DNA of 64,000 nucleotides from Rhodoferax sp. (GTDB taxonomy: Bacteria > Pseudomonadota > Gammaproteobacteria > Burkholderiales > Burkholderiaceae_C), in assembly GCF_028714215.1 (NCBI RefSeq), contig NZ_JAQTMS010000022.1, positions 1-64,000 on the forward strand. The letters are read 5' to 3'. Each line of letters opens with the position of its first letter. Within the stretch, counting starts at the first letter, position 1. Of the stretch, positions 55,291-64,000 are shown one piece after another. Made by a program: the position numbers and the translations under genes. The notes beneath the pieces were generated by a model. It did not search any database, had not been told where the DNA came from, and saw only the letters and a program-made list of their open reading frames with translations.

Positions 55291-55917
55291 ATGAATGAAG
55301 CCCTGCGAATCGTCGTCGTCGCCCCCAATCTGGCGATAGAAGACCAGAGCGATGACTACGCCATCAGCCAGGCGGAGCGTTCGCGCAGCCTGCGCATTGG
55401 CCTGCTGGAAAGCGGCTTCAACCTGGTGGCCAGCCTGCCGGCCGACGTGTTCCTGACCGAACGGCTGGCCCAGTTGCAGCCTGACTTGATCATCGTGGAC
55501 GCCGAAAGCGAAGCCCGCGACGCGCTGGAGCATGTGGTGATGGCAACACGCGACGCCCGCCGCGCTATCGTCTTGTTCACCAACGACAGTGATACCCGCC
55601 ACGTGAAAGACGCGGTGGCCGCCGGCGTGTCGGCCTACATCGTGGCCGGGCTCTCGGCCGAGCGCATCCGGCCGATCCTGGACGTGGCCATGGCCCGCTT
55701 CCAGCATGAGGAGTTGTTGCGCCAGGAACTGGCGGCCACCAGGACCGAGCTGCAGGAGCGCAAGGTCGTCGACCGAGCCAAAGGACTGCTGATGCAGCGC
55801 CAGGGATTGAGTGAGCCCGACGCGTTCAACAAGTTGCGCAAGGCCGCCATGGACAAGGGGCTAAAACTGGCCGATATGGCGCAGCGCGTGCTCGATGCCG
55901 CCGACCTACTGTCCTGA
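55291..55917 (+). CDS. nasT: NasT-type ANTAR antitermination regulator
   Basis: This 208-residue protein has an N-terminal receiver-like domain (about 5-125, Asp70 in LIIVDAESEARD) and a C-terminal ANTAR domain (about 145-205, RKVVDRAKGLLMQRQGLSEP, then LADMAQRVLDAADLL). NasT binds paired hairpins in nas leader RNAs and prevents termination; in known systems NasS holds it inactive until nitrate binds. The start at 55291 fits the family; the open frame from 55198 is unsupported. It precedes the nas leader, which carries the matching RNA motif. No nasS is adjacent. Confidence 0.93.
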   Translation: MNEALRIVVVAPNLAIEDQSDDYAISQAERSRSLRIGLLESGFNLVASLPADVFLTERLAQLQPDLIIVDAESEARDALEHVVMATRDARRAIVLFTNDSDTRHVKDAVAAGVSAYIVAGLSAERIRPILDVAMARFQHEELLRQELAATRTELQERKVVDRAKGLLMQRQGLSEPDAFNKLRKAAMDKGLKLADMAQRVLDAADLLS

Positions 55918-55928
55918 CTTGGTGCGCC

Positions 55929-55943
55929 GCACGGAATTGGTGC
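55929..55943 (+). promoter_or_regulatory. NtrC-type binding site candidate
   Basis: GCAC-N7-GTGC (GCACGGAATTGGTGC) fits the core NtrC dyad. It lies about 130-145 bases upstream of the predicted sigma-54 transcription start, a usual distance for NtrC enhancers. Only one clear site is seen. Confidence 0.6.
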
Positions 55944-56046
55944 TGCCACGGTCAACCCGCTGCCGCAGCAGAAAAGAGGGCACAAACACCGGCCCATGTT
56001 CGACGCAATGCTTCTGAATTCATAGCAACCTGATGCCCCTGCAAGC

Positions 56047-56061
56047 TGGCATGCAGATTGC
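56047..56061 (+). promoter_or_regulatory. Sigma-54 promoter of the nas operon
   Basis: TGGCATGCAGATTGC carries the -24 GG and -12 GC with exactly 10 bases between them and fits TGGCAC-N5-TTGC at all but one position. Transcription is predicted to start near 56073, directly at the first hexaloop hairpin. With the upstream NtrC-type dyad this suggests nitrogen-limitation control. Confidence 0.7.
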
Positions 56062-56072
56062 GTCACCGATGA

Positions 56073-56124
56073 CAAGACCAACGAAGGTCAGTTGATCGTC
56101 TGCTCTCAACGGCGAGCGCAGACG
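56073..56124 (+). ncRNA. ANTAR-target double hairpin in the nas leader
   Basis: Hairpin 1 (56073-56094) has CAA/TTG and GACC/GGTC pairs around the hexaloop AACGAA. Hairpin 2 (56097-56124) has CGTCTGC/GCAGACG and CTC/GAG pairs, with one mismatch, around the hexaloop AACGGC. Both loops have A at position 1 and G at position 4, the rule for RNAs bound by ANTAR proteins, and the two stems are only 2 bases apart. It is the expected target of the NasT encoded directly upstream. Confidence 0.8.
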
Positions 56125-56137
56125 GCCACACCAGGAC

Positions 56138-56208
56138 AAAGGCGTCCCCACCCACAGGCAGCGGCCCTCCAGCCGCCACCTGTTCGGTGCGGACGCCTTT
56201 TTTGTTTT
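56138..56208 (+). terminator. Intrinsic terminator (attenuator) of the nas operon
   Basis: AAAGGCGTCC (56138-56147) pairs with GGACGCCTTT (56191-56200) around an inner stem (ACAGG/CCTGT and GCGGC/GCCGC). A T-rich run follows (56198-56208). It lies 14 bases past the double hairpin and 30 before nrtA, so transcription should stop here unless antiterminated by NasT. Confidence 0.88.
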
Positions 56209-56238
56209 CTGCAACCCGAAACCTCGAGGAAATGTGCC

Positions 56239-57483
56239 ATGCCCGATCTTCTTAACGCCAGCGTCAGCCGCCGCGCGGTATTGCAAAGCGCCGCCGTCGG
56301 TGCCATTGGTATCAGCCCCGCCCTGCGCGCCACGGTTTATGCCGCAGGCTCCGACGCACCGGAGAAAGCCGAGGTCAAGATCGGCTTTATTCCGCTGACC
56401 GATTGCGCCAGCGTGGTGATGGCCTCCGTGCTGGGCATCGACAAGAAATACGGCGTCAGGATCATCCCAACCAAGGAGGCCAGTTGGGCCGGCGTGCGCG
56501 ACAAACTGATGACCGGCGAACTCGACTTTGCCCATGTGCTGTACGGCTTGGTCTACGGCGTGCATCTGGGCCTGGGTGGCGCCAAGAAAGACATGGCCGT
56601 GCTGATGAACCTGAGCCAAAACGGCCAGGCCATCACGCTGTCCAAGAAACTGGCCGACAAAGGCGCGGTGGATGGCGCTGGCCTGGCCCGATTGATGGCT
56701 GCCGAGAAGCGTGAATACACTTTCGCCCAGACCTTCCCCACGGGCACCCATGCCATGTGGCTGTACTACTGGATGGCGGCCAACGGCATCAACCCGATGC
56801 AGGACGCCAAGGTCATCACCGTGCCGCCGCCGCAGATGGTGGCCAACATGCGCGTCGGCAACATGGACGGCTTCTGCGTCGGCGAGCCCTGGAATCACCG
56901 CGCCATCATCGACGGCATTGGCGTGACCGCCGTCACCACACAGGACATCTGGCGGGACCACCCGGAAAAAGTGCTGGGCACGACCGGCGACTTCGTCAAA
57001 AAATACCCCAACACGGCGCGCGCCGTGACAGCCGCCATTCTGGAGGCCGGCAAATGGATTGACGCCGGACTGCAGAACAAAAACAAGATGGCTGAAACTA
57101 TCGCCGAAAAGAGCTACGTCAATACCAGCGTGGACGCCATCAACCAGCGCATCCTGGGGCGCTACCAGAACGGCATGGGCAAGACCTGGGACGACCCCAA
57201 CCACATGAAGTTCTACAACGACGGCCTGGTGAATTTTCCCTACCTGTCGGACGGCATGTGGTTCCTGACACAGCACAAGCGCTGGGGCCTGCTGCGGGAG
57301 CACCCGGATTACCTGGCGGTCGCCAAACAGATCAACCAGATCGACATCTACAAGCAGGCGGCCAGCGCCAGCCACACGCCGCTGCCCAAAGACGCGATGC
57401 GCAGCTCCAAGCTGATGGACGGCGTGGTGTGGGACGGCAAGGACCCGAAAAAATACGCCGACAGTTTCAGGATCAAGGCCTGA
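56239..57483 (+). CDS. nrtA: Nitrate ABC transporter substrate-binding protein
   Basis: This 414-residue NrtA/CmpA-family protein has a twin-arginine signal (SRRAVLQSAA, about 10-19), so it is predicted to be exported folded to the periplasm. Family motifs are VKIGFIPLTDCASVVMASVL near 46-65, THAMWLYYWMAANGI and DGFCVGEPWNH near 214. It binds nitrate or nitrite for NrtBD. GAGGAA lies 8 bases before the ATG. Because the signal sequence makes it periplasmic, it is unlikely to be the cytoplasmic NasS sensor. Confidence 0.93.
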   Translation: MPDLLNASVSRRAVLQSAAVGAIGISPALRATVYAAGSDAPEKAEVKIGFIPLTDCASVVMASVLGIDKKYGVRIIPTKEASWAGVRDKLMTGELDFAHVLYGLVYGVHLGLGGAKKDMAVLMNLSQNGQAITLSKKLADKGAVDGAGLARLMAAEKREYTFAQTFPTGTHAMWLYYWMAANGINPMQDAKVITVPPPQMVANMRVGNMDGFCVGEPWNHRAIIDGIGVTAVTTQDIWRDHPEKVLGTTGDFVKKYPNTARAVTAAILEAGKWIDAGLQNKNKMAETIAEKSYVNTSVDAINQRILGRYQNGMGKTWDDPNHMKFYNDGLVNFPYLSDGMWFLTQHKRWGLLREHPDYLAVAKQINQIDIYKQAASASHTPLPKDAMRSSKLMDGVVWDGKDPKKYADSFRIKA

Positions 57484-57540
57484 AGCCGCGCCGGGCCGGC
57501 CAGCGCTTTGTCCCCCGTCATTTCGCAGGAGTTGCACACC

Positions 57541-58473
57541 ATGGTTAGCGCAGTTTTTCACTCTCCGGTGGCGCCCGCCGCGACGATTGGTCCATCCGCC
57601 GTGAAGCCGCAGGCAGTCGCCACGGAGACGTCGCAAGCGGTCCACCAGAAAGCCCCGGAACTCGCGGCAAGACCCAGCGCCCGCACGTTCGACTGGCGCG
57701 CCTTCTGGCTGGCATTGCTGCCGCCCATATTGGGCCTGGGCCTGCTGCTGGGCATCTGGGCGCTGGTGTCCATCACGACCGCCAGCAGCATCCCCTCGCC
57801 GGCGGACACCTTCCGGCAAGCCATCGTCATCTTCTCCGACCCGTTCTACCGCAAGAGCCCCAACGACCAAGGGGTTGGATGGAACGTCCTGATGTCGCTG
57901 CAACGCGTGGCGGCAGGTTTTGGGCTGGCCGCCGCGGTGGGCATTCCGGCCGGTTTCATGATCGGTCGCTTCGAGTTCCTGAACCGCATGTTCACGCCCA
58001 TCGTCAGCCTGCTGCGTCCGGTATCGCCGCTGGCCTGGTTGCCGATCGGCTTGCTGGTGTTCAAGGGTGCCAACCCGGCCGCCATCTGGACCATTTTCAT
58101 CTGCTCGATCTGGCCCATGATCATCAACACCGCCGTCGGCGTGCAGCGCGTGCCGCAGGACTACATGAATGTGGCGCGGGTGCTGAACCTGAGCGAATGG
58201 AAGATCCTTACCAGGATTTTGTTCCCCTCGGTGCTGCCCTATATGCTGACCGGCGTGCGGCTGGCCGTGGGCACCGCCTGGCTGGTGATTGTGGCGGCGG
58301 AGATGCTGACCGGCGGCGTCGGCATCGGCTTTTGGGTCTGGGACGAGTGGAACAACCTGAACGTCAAGAACATCATCATCGCCATTTTTGTGATCGGCAT
58401 CGTCGGGCTGATGCTGGAATTCGCGCTGATCAAAATCGCCACCGCGTTCACGTTTGAAGAGGTCAAATCATGA
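57541..58473 (+). CDS. nrtB: Nitrate ABC transporter permease
   Basis: This 310-residue inner-membrane permease has an N-terminal extension of about 50 residues before the first segment. About six membrane segments follow, with the cytoplasmic EAA-type loop VQRVPQDYMNVARVLNLSEW near 200-219 that contacts the ATPase. The start at 57541 follows nrtA by 57 bases. Its stop overlaps nrtD (ATGA). Confidence 0.94.
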   Translation: MVSAVFHSPVAPAATIGPSAVKPQAVATETSQAVHQKAPELAARPSARTFDWRAFWLALLPPILGLGLLLGIWALVSITTASSIPSPADTFRQAIVIFSDPFYRKSPNDQGVGWNVLMSLQRVAAGFGLAAAVGIPAGFMIGRFEFLNRMFTPIVSLLRPVSPLAWLPIGLLVFKGANPAAIWTIFICSIWPMIINTAVGVQRVPQDYMNVARVLNLSEWKILTRILFPSVLPYMLTGVRLAVGTAWLVIVAAEMLTGGVGIGFWVWDEWNNLNVKNIIIAIFVIGIVGLMLEFALIKIATAFTFEEVKS

Positions 58474-59306
58474 GCGACTCAGCAGCGACCAAATACATCG
58501 AGATCGCCGGCGTCGGCCAAACCTTCAAGACCCGCAGCGGCCCGTTCTGCGCGCTGCAAGACGTCAGTCTGACGGTCGCCAAGGGCGAGTTTGTCACCCT
58601 CATCGGCCACTCCGGCTGCGGCAAGTCCACGCTACTGAACTTGATTGCCGGTCTGACACTGCCGACGCAAGGCCACCTGCTGTGCGCCAACCGCGAGATT
58701 TCGGGCCCCAACCCGGAACGGGCCGTGGTGTTCCAGAACCATTCCTTGCTGCCCTGGCTGACCTGTTTCGAAAACGTCTATCTGGGCGTCGAGCGGGTCT
58801 TTGGCGCCGGCAACCGGACGACCGGCGCCGTGTCGGAGAACAAGGGGCAACTCAGGGCGCGCACCGATGCCGCGCTGGCGCTGGTGGGCCTGGGCGCGGC
58901 GGCACAAAAGCGTCCGGGCGAAATTTCGGGCGGCATGAAGCAGCGCGTTGGCATCGCGCGCGCGCTGGCCATGGAGCCCAAGGTGTTGCTGATGGACGAA
59001 CCCTTTGGCGCGCTGGACGCCTTGACCCGCGCCAAGCTGCAGGACGAGTTGCTGCAGATCGTCGCCAAGACGCACAGCACCGTGGTGATGGTGACGCACG
59101 ATGTCGACGAGGCCGTGCTGCTGTCCGACCGGATCGTGATGCTGAGCAACGGGCCGTGCGCCACCATCGGCGAGGTTCTGCGCGTGGCGCTGCCGCGTCC
59201 GCGCAACCGGGTCGAACTGGCCGAAAGCGCGCAGTACCTGCACTGCCGCAAGGCGGTGATGGACTTCCTGTACACGCGCCAGGCCCATGTGGAGAAAGCC
59301 GCATGA
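58470..59306 (+). CDS. nrtD: Nitrate ABC transporter ATP-binding protein
   Basis: This 278-residue ATPase has Walker A GHSGCGKST near 48, signature ISGGMKQRVGIARAL, Walker B VLLMDEPFGALD and switch VMVTHDVDEAV. It lacks the NrtA-like C-terminal domain of NrtC, so it is an NrtD-type subunit. With NrtA and NrtB it makes a complete nitrate importer. Confidence 0.94.
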   Translation: MSDSAATKYIEIAGVGQTFKTRSGPFCALQDVSLTVAKGEFVTLIGHSGCGKSTLLNLIAGLTLPTQGHLLCANREISGPNPERAVVFQNHSLLPWLTCFENVYLGVERVFGAGNRTTGAVSENKGQLRARTDAALALVGLGAAAQKRPGEISGGMKQRVGIARALAMEPKVLLMDEPFGALDALTRAKLQDELLQIVAKTHSTVVMVTHDVDEAVLLSDRIVMLSNGPCATIGEVLRVALPRPRNRVELAESAQYLHCRKAVMDFLYTRQAHVEKAA

Positions 59307-59434: not shown

Positions 59435-61912
59435 ATGGACATGAGCGTCAAGCCCAAAGACCGGATGAAACTGGTGATGATCGGCAACGGCATGGCCGGG
59501 GTGCGCACGCTGGAGGAACTGCTGAAACTGGCCCCCGACCTGTACGACATCACCGTCTTCGGCGCCGAGCCGCACCCTAACTACAACAGAATTTTGTTGT
59601 CGCCGGTGCTGGCCGGGGAACAAACGGTGGACCAGATCGTCCTCAACGACTGGGCTTGGTACCAGGACAACGGCATCACCCTGCACGCCGGCTGGACCGT
59701 GACCGGGGTCGACCGCGTCAAGCGCAGCGTGCATGCGAAGAACGCCGCCGGTGAAACGATCAGCGCACCCTACGACCGCCTGATCATGGCCACCGGCTCC
59801 AACCCCTTCATGCTGCCCGTGCCGGGCAAAGAATTGCAGGGCGTGCTGGCCTACCGCGACATTGCCGACACGCAGGCCATGATCGACGCCGCCGGCAAGT
59901 ACCAGCACGCCGTGGTCATCGGCGGCGGCCTGCTCGGGCTGGAAGCGGCCAACGGCCTGATGAAGCGCGGCATGACGGTCAGCGTGGTGCATGTGGCGCC
60001 CTGGCTGATGGAACGCCAGCTCGACAGCGTGGCGGCGAAGCTGCTGCAGCAATCGCTGGAAGCGCGCGGCATGCAATTCCTGATCGGCGCGCAAACGCAG
60101 GAGCTGGTCGGTGGCGAAGAGGATGGCAAAGGTGGCCGCGTCAAGTCGGTCAAGTTCAAGGACGGCAGCGAGGTGCCCGCCGATCTGGTGGTGATGGCAG
60201 TCGGCATTCGTCCCAACACCGCATTGGCCGAAGCCATGTGCCTGCACGTGAACCGCGGCATTGTGGTCAGCGACACGCTGCAGACCACCACCGACGCCCG
60301 CATCTACGCGGTGGGCGAATGCGCGGCGCACCGCGGCATTGCCTACGGCCTGGTGGCGCCGCTGTTCGAGCAGGGCAAGGTGGCAGCCAACCATCTGGCG
60401 CAGTTCGGCATCGGCCGCTACAGCGGCTCGCTGACCTCGACCAAGCTCAAGGTCACCGGCATCGACCTGCTTTCTGCCGGCCAGTTCATGGGCGGCGACG
60501 ATACGGAAGAGATCGTCATGAGCGACCCGGCCGGCGGTGTCTACAAAAAGCTGGTGCTGAAGGACGACAAGCTGGTCGGCGCCTGCCTGTACGGCGACAC
60601 GGTGGACGGCAGTTGGTACTTCAAGCTGCTGCGCGACGGCCGCAATGTCACCGACATCCGCGACCGGCTGATGTTCGGCGAGTCCAACATCGGCGACGCC
60701 GGCCATGAGGGCCATAACCAGGCCGCCGCCATGACCGACAGCGACGAGGTCTGCGGCTGCAATGGTGTCACCAAAGGCACCATCTGCAAGGCCATCAAGG
60801 ACCAGGGCTTGTTCACGCTGGACGAGGTGCGCAAACAGACCAAGGCCAGCGCTTCCTGCGGCTCCTGCACCGGACTGGTGGAGCAGATCCTGATGTTCAG
60901 CGCCGGCGGCGACTACTCGGCCACGCCCAAGACCAAGGCGCTGTGCGGCTGCACTGACCACGGTCACCAGGCGGTGCGCGACGCCATCCGGCAGCACAAG
61001 CTGCTGAGCATTGCCGAGGTCTACCAATTCCTGGAATGGCGCACGCCCAACGGCTGTGCTTCATGCCGCCCGGCCATCAACTACTACCTGATCTCGACCT
61101 GGCCGAAGGAGGCCAGGGACGATCCGCAAAGCCGTTTCATCAATGAGCGCAGCCACGCCAACATCCAGAAAGACGGCAGCTACTCCGTCATTCCCCGCAT
61201 GTGGGGCGGCGAGACCACGGCCAGTGAACTGCGCCGCATTGCGGACGCGGTGGACAAGTACAAGATCCCCACCGTGAAGGTCACCGGCGGTCAGCGCATC
61301 GACCTGCTGGGCGTGAAAAAAGAGGATTTGGCGGCGGTCTGGCAGGACCTGGGCATGCCCAGCGGCCACGCCTATGCCAAGGCGCTGCGCACCGTCAAGA
61401 CCTGCGTCGGCAGCGAATGGTGTCGCATGGGCACGCAGGACAGCACGCAAATGGGCAAGGACCTGGAGCGCGCCTTTGTCGGCATGTATGCGCCGCACAA
61501 GGTGAAATTCGCGGTCAGCGGCTGCCCGCGCAACTGCGCCGAGGCCGGCATCAAGGACGTCGGCATCATCGGCGTTGACAGTGGTTGGGAGATGTACATC
61601 GCCGGCAACGGTGGCATCAAGACCGAAGTTGCGCACTTCTTCACCAAACTGAAAACCGCTGCCGAAGTGCTGGAGTACACCGGCGCCTTTTGCGAGCTGT
61701 ATCGCCAGCAAGGCTGGTACCTGGAGCGCACCGTGCACTTTGTCAACCGCGTCGGCCTGGACTATGTGAAGAAGAAAATTCTGGACGATCCTGCGGGCCG
61801 CAAGGCACTGTGGGAGAGCCTGCAGTTTGCGTTGGACGGCGAGCCCGATCCCTGGTTTGAATTTGACAAGGCCGCGGTCGATACCCGGCAATTCCAGAGG
61901 ATATTGGCATGA
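59435..61912 (+). CDS. nirB: Assimilatory nitrite reductase large subunit
   Basis: This 825-residue flavo-sirohaem enzyme reduces nitrite to ammonia with NAD(P)H. The FAD motif is VMIGNGMAGVRTLEELL near 14-30 and the NAD(P)H motif VVIGGGLLGLEAANGL near 155. BFD-like 2Fe-2S cysteines are in VCGCNGVTKGTIC and SCGSCTGLVEQIL near 440-490. The C-terminal siroheme/4Fe-4S ligands are in VGSEWCRMGTQDS and SGCPRNCAEAG near 660-710. GGAG precedes the ATG. It overlaps nirD by 4 bases. Confidence 0.96.
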   Translation: MDMSVKPKDRMKLVMIGNGMAGVRTLEELLKLAPDLYDITVFGAEPHPNYNRILLSPVLAGEQTVDQIVLNDWAWYQDNGITLHAGWTVTGVDRVKRSVHAKNAAGETISAPYDRLIMATGSNPFMLPVPGKELQGVLAYRDIADTQAMIDAAGKYQHAVVIGGGLLGLEAANGLMKRGMTVSVVHVAPWLMERQLDSVAAKLLQQSLEARGMQFLIGAQTQELVGGEEDGKGGRVKSVKFKDGSEVPADLVVMAVGIRPNTALAEAMCLHVNRGIVVSDTLQTTTDARIYAVGECAAHRGIAYGLVAPLFEQGKVAANHLAQFGIGRYSGSLTSTKLKVTGIDLLSAGQFMGGDDTEEIVMSDPAGGVYKKLVLKDDKLVGACLYGDTVDGSWYFKLLRDGRNVTDIRDRLMFGESNIGDAGHEGHNQAAAMTDSDEVCGCNGVTKGTICKAIKDQGLFTLDEVRKQTKASASCGSCTGLVEQILMFSAGGDYSATPKTKALCGCTDHGHQAVRDAIRQHKLLSIAEVYQFLEWRTPNGCASCRPAINYYLISTWPKEARDDPQSRFINERSHANIQKDGSYSVIPRMWGGETTASELRRIADAVDKYKIPTVKVTGGQRIDLLGVKKEDLAAVWQDLGMPSGHAYAKALRTVKTCVGSEWCRMGTQDSTQMGKDLERAFVGMYAPHKVKFAVSGCPRNCAEAGIKDVGIIGVDSGWEMYIAGNGGIKTEVAHFFTKLKTAAEVLEYTGAFCELYRQQGWYLERTVHFVNRVGLDYVKKKILDDPAGRKALWESLQFALDGEPDPWFEFDKAAVDTRQFQRILA

Positions 61913-62295
61913 GTGCATGGAAAAAAATCTGCCGGCTTGAAGACATCCCAGTGCTGGGCGCGCGCCGCGTCGCCCGCGCCAGTGGCCTGGACGTCGCCGT
62001 GTTTCGCAACGCGCAGGACCAGGTGTTTGCGCTGCTCGACCGCTGCCCGCACAAGGGCGGTCCGCTGAGCCAGGGCATCGTGTTTGGCGCCAGTGTGGCG
62101 TGTCCCCTGCACAACTGGACCATTGGCCTGGCCGATGGCTGCGCCGCTGCGCCCGATGTGGGTTGCACACCCCGCTTCAGCGTGAAGGTGGAAGCCAATG
62201 TGGTGCACCTTGATGCGCGTGAGCTGGCCAGCCACGCGATCGACCTGGTCGCTCCGGTGGCCGGCCCGGCAGGCCGGCAAACCGAGCACGCATGA
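61909..62295 (+). CDS. nirD: Nitrite reductase small subunit, Rieske type
   Basis: This 128-residue Rieske-fold protein partners NirB. The cluster ligands are present: CPH in LDRCPHKGGPLSQ near 46 and CPLH in VACPLHNWTIGLADG near 65. It can therefore hold a 2Fe-2S cluster, in contrast to NirD proteins that lost the ligands. It overlaps nirB and nasA by 4 bases each. Confidence 0.93.
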   Translation: MSAWKKICRLEDIPVLGARRVARASGLDVAVFRNAQDQVFALLDRCPHKGGPLSQGIVFGASVACPLHNWTIGLADGCAAAPDVGCTPRFSVKVEANVVHLDARELASHAIDLVAPVAGPAGRQTEHA

Positions 62296-64000
62296 GGTTG
62301 GAGCCCGCTCCGACGGCGGCGGCGAGCAGCTTGCGCCAGACCCGATCAACCTGCCCCTATTGCGGCGTCGGCTGTGGCGTCATCATCGAGTCCGCTGGCA
62401 ACCAGATCACTGGCGTTCGTGGCGACCCGGATCATCCCGCCAATTTCGGCCGGCTCTGCACCAAGGGTGCCACGCTGCACCTCACCGCCAGCGCGGCCGT
62501 GACGCGGCAAAGCCGCCTGCTGCACCCCCTGCGACGCGCGCAGCGGGGGGAGCCGGCGCAGCGCTGCGACTGGGACAGCGCACTCGATCTTGCCGCCGCG
62601 CGCTTTGCACAAATCATTCGGGAGCATGGTCCCAATGCGGTCGGTTTCTACATCTCCGGGCAACTGCTCACGGAAGACTATTACGTCTTCAACAAGCTGG
62701 TCAAGGGACTGATTGGCAGCAACAACATCGACAGCAACTCACGCCTGTGCATGAGCAGCGCGGTGGCCGGCTACAAACAGACGCTGGGCATGGACGCGCC
62801 GCCCGCCTGCTACGACGACATCCAGCACGCCAGCACGCTGTTCATCATCGGCTCCAACACGGCCTACGCGCATCCGGTGCTGTTTCGCCGCATTGAAGCG
62901 GCGCGCCGTGCCAACCCGGCGCTCAAGATCGTGGTCTGCGACCCGCGCCGCACCGACACCGCCGCGATGGCCGACCTCTTCTTGCCGATCCAGCCCGGCA
63001 CCGATGTGCTGCTGCTGATGGGCATGCTGCACATCATGCTGTGGGAAGGCTGGGTTGACAGCGCGTTCATCGCCGCCCACACCGGCGGCTTTGAGACTCT
63101 CAAGGCCAACGTGCTCGACTGCACGCCTGACTTGGTGACGCAGACCTGTGGCATCTCCAGAGCCGATTTGCTGCAGGCGGCGCGCCTGTTTGCCGGCGTC
63201 TCATCCGATCACGCGGCGCAGCGCACGCCCACGCTCAGCCTGTACTGCCAGGGCCTGAACCAGTCCAGCAGCGGCAGCGCCAAAAACGCGGCGCTGATCA
63301 ACCTGCACCTGCCACCGGACAGATTGGAAAACCGGGTGCCGGACCTTTTTCGCTGACCGGCCAGCCCAACGCCATGGGGGGACGCGAAGTCGGCGGCATG
63401 GCCAATTTGCTGTCGGGCCACCGCGACCTGCACAACCCGGCGCACCGCGCCGAGGTGGCGGCCTTGTGGGGCGTGCCCAGCGTGCCGGCACAAGCCGGAA
63501 AAACCGCCGTGGAAATGTTCCAGGCCGCCGCCGACGGCGAAATCCAGGCCCTGTGGATCGCCTGCACCAACCCCGCGCAAAGCATGCCCGATCAGAGCAC
63601 CGTGCGCCGCGCCCTGGAACGCGCCGAATTCGTGGTGCTGCAGGAAGCCTTTGCCGGCACCGCCAGCGGCCGCTACGCCGACCTGCTGCTGCCGGCCAGC
63701 ACCTGGGGCGAAAAAGAAGGCACCGTCACCAACAGCGAACGCCGCATCAGCCGCGTGCGCGCCGCCGTGCTGGCGCCCGGCGAAGCCCGCCATGACTGGC
63801 AGATCGTCGTCGATTTCGCACGCCGCCTGGAGACGCGGCTGCCACGCCCAAAGTCGCTGTTCCCGTACACCAGCTCGGAGTCCATCTGGCTGGAGCATCG
63901 CGAATCGACCCGCGGCCGCGACCTCGACATCACCGGCATGTCCTACCCCATGCTGGAGCAGTCACCCCAACAATGGCCGCTGCCTGAAGGCCAGACCCAG
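62292..64000 (+). CDS. nasA: Assimilatory nitrate reductase, frameshifted and cut by the window end
   Basis: This is the molybdopterin enzyme reducing nitrate to nitrite in the cytoplasm. The N-terminal 4Fe-4S motif is clear (CPYCGVGCGVIIES, then NFGRLCTKGATLH near 20-60), followed by Mo-bis-MGD domain sequences such as NSRLCMSSAVAGYKQTLG. The frame is intact for 340 codons to 63311. An apparent single-base deletion (a G expected between 63311 and 63312, CTG-GCC read as CTG-CC) then breaks it and gives a stop at 63354-63356. The -1-corrected frame resumes from 63314 as TGQIGKPGAGPFSLTGQPNA and GGREVGGMANLLSGHRDLHN and stays open to 64000. The rest of the gene lies outside. The gene may be inactivated, or the base may be a sequencing error. 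Confidence 0.88.

Follow-up and report, generated by a model that had tools for sequence, protein, structure and literature searches.

The window analysed here, a 64,000-nt stretch of a Rhodoferax sp. contig, contains nasT and, downstream on the same strand, a set of nitrate assimilation genes. In the gap between nasT and nrtA (55918-56238) an NtrC-type dyad is followed by a sigma-54 element, three hexaloop hairpins (P1, P2 and P3) and an intrinsic terminator. The features are as follows.

55291..55917, + strand: nasT, pseudo-receiver and ANTAR domain (ATG 55291, stop 55917)
55929..55943, + strand: NtrC-type dyad GCAC-N7-GTGC, GCACGGAATTGGTGC, exact match
56047..56061, + strand: sigma-54 element TGGCATGCAGATTGC (GG-N10-GC), conserved among relatives
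56072..56074 (about 56073), + strand: predicted transcription start, placed by sigma-54 spacing, 3 nt before P1
56076..56089, + strand: P1, additional hexaloop hairpin upstream of P2, GACC[AACGAA]GGTC, position and pairing conserved
56097..56124, + strand: P2, recruitment-type hexaloop hairpin, loop AACGGC at 56108-56113
56134..56147, + strand: P3, mini-hairpin GGAC[AAAGGC]GTCC, proposed antiterminator, overlapping the terminator 5′ arm
56138..56203, + strand: intrinsic terminator; 63-nt hairpin 56138-56200, stem 56138-56147 with 56191-56200, T-run 56198-56203
56239..57483, + strand: nrtA, substrate-binding protein with a twin-arginine signal (SRRAVLQ), putative candidate sensor
57508..58473, + strand: nrtB, nitrate ABC transporter permease (NCBIfam TIGR01183 above cut-off)
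58470..59306, + strand: nrtC, nitrate ABC transporter ATPase (NCBIfam TIGR01184 above cut-off)
59435..61912, + strand: nirB, nitrite reductase large subunit (NCBIfam TIGR02374 above cut-off)
61909..62295, + strand: nirD, nitrite reductase small subunit (NCBIfam TIGR02378 above cut-off)
62292..64000 (leaves the window), + strand: nasA-like, assimilatory nitrate reductase, family matches below cut-off

The name nrtA is based on Pfam NMT1_2 and gene context. Within nasA (63290-63380) the ORF 62292-63356 stops early and the protein resumes in another frame from about 63310, an apparent frame change that may be a draft sequencing error or a genuine break. The gene upstream of nasT, on the opposite strand, is presumably tsaD-like.

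An initial annotation of the gap had named the dyad, the sigma-54 element, two hairpins with A and G at loop positions 1 and 4 (A1 and G4) and the terminator; all were found at the coordinates above and are mostly conserved in order. The compact arrangement that it had singled out is also present, as a widespread feature of relatives rather than a peculiarity of this locus. Relatives were collected by a NasT scan, from which the best 80 of at least 95 loci were kept (81 with the window). A sigma-54 element and a T-run lie within 1200 nt after nasT in 64 of the 81 loci and in the other 17 none was found there; in four of these 17 the model R1 locates the leader farther along: in L060 it lies close to the locus end, and in L035, L041 and L079 it precedes an nrtA that is some way off.

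Two exact dyads occur in the 64-kb window against 4.1 expected, which by itself is not above chance, and one-mismatch matches to TGGCAYGNNNNTTGC number seven against 6.8 expected. The element TGGCATGCAGATTGC is the sole exact TGGCAYGNNNNTTGC match in the 64 kb, and a looser sigma-54 pattern gave 47 exact matches in the whole genome, compared with 21 for a reversed control. Since the dyad and the one-mismatch sigma-54 matches are no rarer than chance, the case rests on conservation: an exact GCAC-N7-GTGC lies at most 200 nt upstream of the sigma-54 element in 55 of the 64 leaders (0.5% in shuffles), the remaining nine having no exact dyad inside 200 nt. The genome encodes one RpoN, one NtrC over the cut-off and one ANTAR protein, and with the GG-N10-GC element and the NtrC dyad the sequence and protein parts of a sigma-54/NtrC promoter are all present. 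Sigma-54-dependent transcripts begin about 12 nt past the -12 GC, which is the spacing used to predict the start near 56073.

An ANTAR site, in the portion of PMC3369931 available to us, is a hexaloop hairpin joined to a further mini-hairpin where the terminator has its 5′ base, with A1 and G4 in each loop, and induction is impaired when the linker is lengthened or shortened. P2 (AACGGC) and P3 (AAAGGC) both carry A1 and G4, as does P1 (AACGAA), and P3 overlaps the terminator and excludes it. The initial annotation had overlooked P3 and taken P1 and P2 as the ANTAR pair; since P2 and P3 match the terminator-overlap definition (PMC3369931), P1 and P2 were rejected as the entire pair and P1 is regarded as additional. 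Three hexaloops rather than exactly two are present in this leader, which is filed as a variant of the ANTAR dual-hexaloop site because it contains the P2-P3 pair. The linkers, 7 nt between P1 and P2 and 9 nt between P2 and P3, are both within the 5-12 nt range given for eut sites in the same source.

Folding places P3 and the terminator in competition. The terminator hairpin (-41.4 kcal/mol, z -7.6) was equalled by none of 200 shuffles, while by energy alone P1 was matched by 9 of 200, a P2 fragment by 13 and the two jointly by 2. P3 by itself is weak (-4.0 kcal/mol) and is mutually exclusive with the terminator, with which it shares 56138-56147; when growing transcripts were folded stepwise from 56072, P3 was kept to 56192 and was gone from 56195. 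The full leader folds at -65.3 kcal/mol compared with -51.7 when P3 is enforced, suggesting that the terminator wins unless P3 is held.

Among the relatives 63 of 64 leaders have P3; the extracted sequence of the 64th (L023) is too short. Its stem is GGAC/GTCC in 50 and GAAC/GTTC in 13, with no mixed forms although the pattern permitted them, and its loop has A1 in 57 and G4 in all 63. Sixty of 64 leaders have a P2 with A1, G4 and at least three pairs, the loop letters holding by construction, since the search pattern required both. In seven leaders (L006, L009, L010, L012, L013, L017 and L021) a further hairpin separates P2 from P3, and the P2-P3 loop distance is 47-57, versus about 30 usually; the inserted hairpin may keep P2 and P3 close in space.

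The loops of P1, P2 and P3 start at 56080, 56108 and 56138. P1 was sought solely where its loop would begin 33-35 nt from the first position of the -24 element, and was found in 53 of the 64 leaders, the window included (3.5% of shuffles), and in 38 of the 53 the distance is 34 nt. Its loop has A1 in 40, G4 in 42, both in 37 and A5 in 39 of the 53; the 16 loops that lack A1 or G4 make it less strict than that of P3, while all 45 aligned leaders close it with C:G. P1 is missing from 11 of the 64 leaders, which corresponds to three changes on the NasT tree, at least two of them forced, indicating that P1 is not essential and has a history of repeated gain or loss. P1 is proposed to act as a second recruitment hairpin.

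The three stems were examined in an alignment (A2) of 45 of the 53 P1-bearing leaders; seven were left out as too long, owing to the hairpin inserted between P2 and P3, and one because P3 was not captured. Changes on both sides were seen in three of four P1 pairs, six of seven P2 pairs and one of four P3 pairs, the covariation of P3 thus depending on one pair, and all P1 cells (100%) are paired. Over the alignment 92.7% of cells are paired, versus 78.8% in shuffles, and the covariation score is 0.425, versus 0.169, neither value being reached by any of 500 shuffles; the number of pairs with change on both sides (10) was reached by 9 of 500. The initial annotation had made its reading depend on covariation of its two stems in relatives, and those of P1 and P2 do covary. 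Sliding the pairing partner by 1-3 columns leaves 28-47% paired, and RNAalifold, supplied with no structure, recovers the same three stems. Run over the genome, model R1 gave one strong site (E 5.7e-20), the next best being 0.0145 with 150 of 2776 first-look candidates scored; the next three matches (E 0.0145 and weaker), viewed by eye, had no leader layout of a second ANTAR RNA site. In Burkholderia multivorans a second R1 match (L103 4852-4936, 25.4 bits) lies on the other strand between nasT and narK, before a gene that we take to be cobA-like, and is a possible second NasT target.

Beyond the close relatives, a search of 300 genomes of the order for a pattern of sigma-54 element plus P3 gave 58 matches (reversed control 4), which lie in 53 of the genomes, and 36 of 398 genomes of the phylum also had the pattern, part of these matches being chance. 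Twenty of the 58 were fetched, picked by eye as leader-like with a preference for more hexaloops and all outside the window's family, and counts on them are not frequencies. A mid-leader hexaloop with A1, G4, C:G closure and at least five pairs precedes P3 in 10 of these 20 hand-picked leaders (0.14% in shuffles). Nine of the 10 (L153, L155-L158 and L165-L168, from families f5, f8, f15, f22 and f50) have three hexaloops, an A1/G4 hexaloop lying upstream as well; in the tenth (L159) the first hairpin is without A1/G4. Matches in family f55, viewed as their first 80 letters, have one upstream hexaloop, and from their likeness to the P11 RNA we infer that this family is Pseudomonas.

Nitrogen-controlled initiation with ANTAR antitermination is known from Klebsiella, Azotobacter and P. 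aeruginosa, and nas operons regulated by NasS-NasT also occur in Azotobacter and Pseudomonas aeruginosa. The view of the initial annotation that the parts were familiar from other nas systems agrees with the accessible text of PMC5424462, where nitrogen-controlled initiation stands above ANTAR antitermination, and of PMC12316311, where sigma-54 promoters are predicted at NasT-group genes. As described in the available parts of PMC3369931, PMC8934654 and PMC7496416, the leaders of eut in Enterococcus, nasF in Klebsiella and amiE in Pseudomonas resemble the present one in their A1/G4 hexaloops with C:G closure, short linkers and a last hairpin on the terminator 5′ arm, and differ in having one upstream hexaloop rather than two (P1 and P2). 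The NasS-NasT operons of Paracoccus, as far as the same kind of partial text in PMC3795266 and PMC5424462 goes, share a pseudo-receiver/ANTAR NasT, leader hairpins before nas and NtrC-level control above; in the Rhodoferax genome, unlike these, no NasS was found, and behind nasT come the leader and then Tat-type NrtA, NrtB and NrtC.

At the gathering thresholds Rfam gave no match for the window or for the loci of 13 relatives. Below them, the alignments of narK (RF03032, 19.2 of 43.2 bits) and P11 (RF00625, 15.7 of 70 bits) to window 56047-56148 cover the sigma-54 element, a single hairpin with an AACG hexaloop, and GACAAAG at the beginning of P3 and the terminator; the two models differ from the leader in their sub-gathering scores and in the single upstream hexaloop of the alignments. 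The narK and P11 RNAs look like ANTAR/NasT leaders rather than distinct kinds of RNA. In the literature searched no ANTAR leader with three hexaloops was found, which is not proof of absence in print. The two-signal cassette is therefore already known in kind, and the third hexaloop is its apparently new part.

A search of the genome found no ANTAR protein besides NasT (3.2e-21), which has the pseudo-receiver and ANTAR domains of NasS-NasT systems. The receiver lysine of 1s8n aligns with A in this NasT, and A at that position points to a protein partner rather than phosphorylation, which makes such a partner likely here. Many residues of the receiver half are kept in at least 95% of the 81 rows. 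The first receiver loop in the window's NasT group has a 14-residue insert (55330-55371) that the Burkholderia, rhizobial-type and Paracoccus NasT used for comparison lack; as a mark of NasT that works without NasS this insert was discarded, since family members seemingly without it, matched to NasT from about residue 29 on, also adjoin Tat-type NrtA.

In Paracoccus, NasS keeps NasT inactive until nitrate or nitrite is bound (PMC3795266, available in part). By similarity to three NasS queries no cytoplasmic NasS was found in the present genome, a 116-contig draft estimated to be 100% complete. Two alphaproteobacterial-type queries match the window NrtA and a second NrtA-like protein (C21), one of them also a weak C40 piece (E 3.3e-4), and a Burkholderia NasS query (limit 1e-30) matches the window NrtA and the C21 protein alone; both of these have twin-arginine N-termini. 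The C21 protein was rejected as NasS on account of this N-terminus and its position beside what are presumably permease-, ATPase- and cyanase-like genes. It belongs to a second NrtA-like transporter set (L101 7200-13200; G000:C21), adjoined by a cyanase-like gene and by regulators that we take to be NarL-type and PAS-type, and this set probably serves cyanate uptake.

Across 100 genomes of the family a NasT-like match was found in 53 and a Burkholderia NasS match above 280 bits in 70, exactly one in each, so that no family genome shows NrtA plus a separate NasS of such kind. The motif RRxx[LFIMV] is present in the first 35 residues of 64 of the 67 proteins after nasT (NasT-scan loci and window); of the other three, L034 and L048 are signal-less and the N-terminus of L041 lies outside the alignment. 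Signal-less binding proteins stand directly behind the leader in L034 (6868-8307), L048 (6893-8149) and L130; narK follows in L048, and L034 and the L130 genome (L177) have a second transporter set there. In the 30 best-scoring family loci for the Burkholderia NasS query, the motif in a permissive pattern was found in 29, all but L130, and the P3 pattern upstream in 24. Ten stretches upstream of leaders from other families contained nasT and a signal-less binding protein in five cases (L178-L181 and L184) and neither in five.

In trees the signal-less beta proteins share a clade with Tat-type NrtA (100/99 or better), from which alphaproteobacterial NasS is separate. All three trees put L034 and L130 within Tat-type NrtA, two of them with starred support above these proteins, while the other signal-less proteins shift between trees. 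NarK-type NasS is nested inside NrtA in two trees, in one of them without starred support, and is near the base in the third, from which L048, NasS_Burk and L184 were left out. These placements carry warnings on long branches and letter make-up, and the later two trees omit 18 NrtA rows and have unsettled bootstraps. Since the signal-less NasS-like proteins group with NrtA, L034 and L130 inside it, NrtA may double as a sensor, and it is the best candidate for that role.

Taken together, these data suggest, with a probability of about 0.78, that in the gap a sigma-54 promoter, preceded by an NtrC-type site, drives a NasT-controlled leader RNA. Under nitrogen limitation NtrC-P would activate transcription near 56073, and the nascent RNA would form P1, P2 and then P3. 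With NasT inactive, completion of the 3′ arm (56191-56200) would let the long terminator displace P3, and transcription would stop; active NasT would be recruited at P1 and P2 and hold P3, occupying the terminator 5′ arm (56138-56147), and polymerase would continue into nrtABC-nirBD-nasA. What was computed for this model is the set of sequence elements, how far they are conserved and covary, and that P3 and terminator exclude each other in folding; protein binding, the start site, the direction of control and P1 as a second recruitment hairpin are predicted from them. The two-signal control proposed in the initial annotation stands as the best reading in its initiation (sigma-54/NtrC) and elongation (NasT) halves and leaves the nitrate signal unaccounted for, no NasS having been found.

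Control of initiation alone, the leader terminator being a constitutive attenuator and NasT acting elsewhere or nowhere, would fit the good conservation of the sigma-54 element and dyad. It appears very improbable, however, given that P3 pairs with itself while sharing the terminator arm, that its GGAC/GTCC to GAAC/GTTC change is coordinated and that three ANTAR-signature hexaloops adjoin the genome's only ANTAR gene found. A more serious, though still unlikely, alternative concerns P1, which could be a stem-loop protecting the 5′ end, with NasT acting at P2 and P3 alone as in the standard dual-hairpin model. At the one spot where P1 was sought and found, its stem would begin at about +4, and both its less strict loop and its loss in some lineages are consistent with such a role. 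Against it, A1 and G4 are the commonest letters at their positions in the P1 loop (40 and 42 of 53) and the closing pair is always C:G (45 of 45), the features that NasR selects (PMC7496416, in its available part); a second mid-leader hexaloop also recurs in half of the hand-picked leaders from other families, far above the shuffles.

It is also conceivable, if rather improbable, that NasT receives no nitrate input, being always active or level-dependent, and that nitrogen limitation is the sole signal. The failure to find NasS in the genome by similarity would fit, as would the nitrate-independent nas expression that follows nasS loss in Paracoccus (PMC3795266, available in part), but the receiver half of NasT is well kept and, as an argument rather than data, an always-on antiterminator would make the terminator pointless.

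Tat substrates fold in the cytoplasm prior to export. On the preferred reading, with NasT acting on the leader, a nitrate-free NrtA precursor might hold NasT inactive, and released NasT might step along three evenly spaced hexaloops from recruitment to antitermination, a speculative scheme to which we give a low probability; the placement of L034 and L130 within Tat-type NrtA, at loci with a second transporter set behind, speaks for it. PMC8934654, in its accessible part, asks why two hexaloops exist given that the dimer contacts one, and proposes a handover from recruitment to antitermination hairpin. The 53 leaders with P1 and 11 without it, in otherwise similar operons, are a ready natural comparison for this handover. 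A NasT operon for which no NasS was found raises the question of where nitrate is sensed; if the NrtA scheme were true, the first gene behind the leader would encode both the binding protein of the transporter and the sensor of its regulator.
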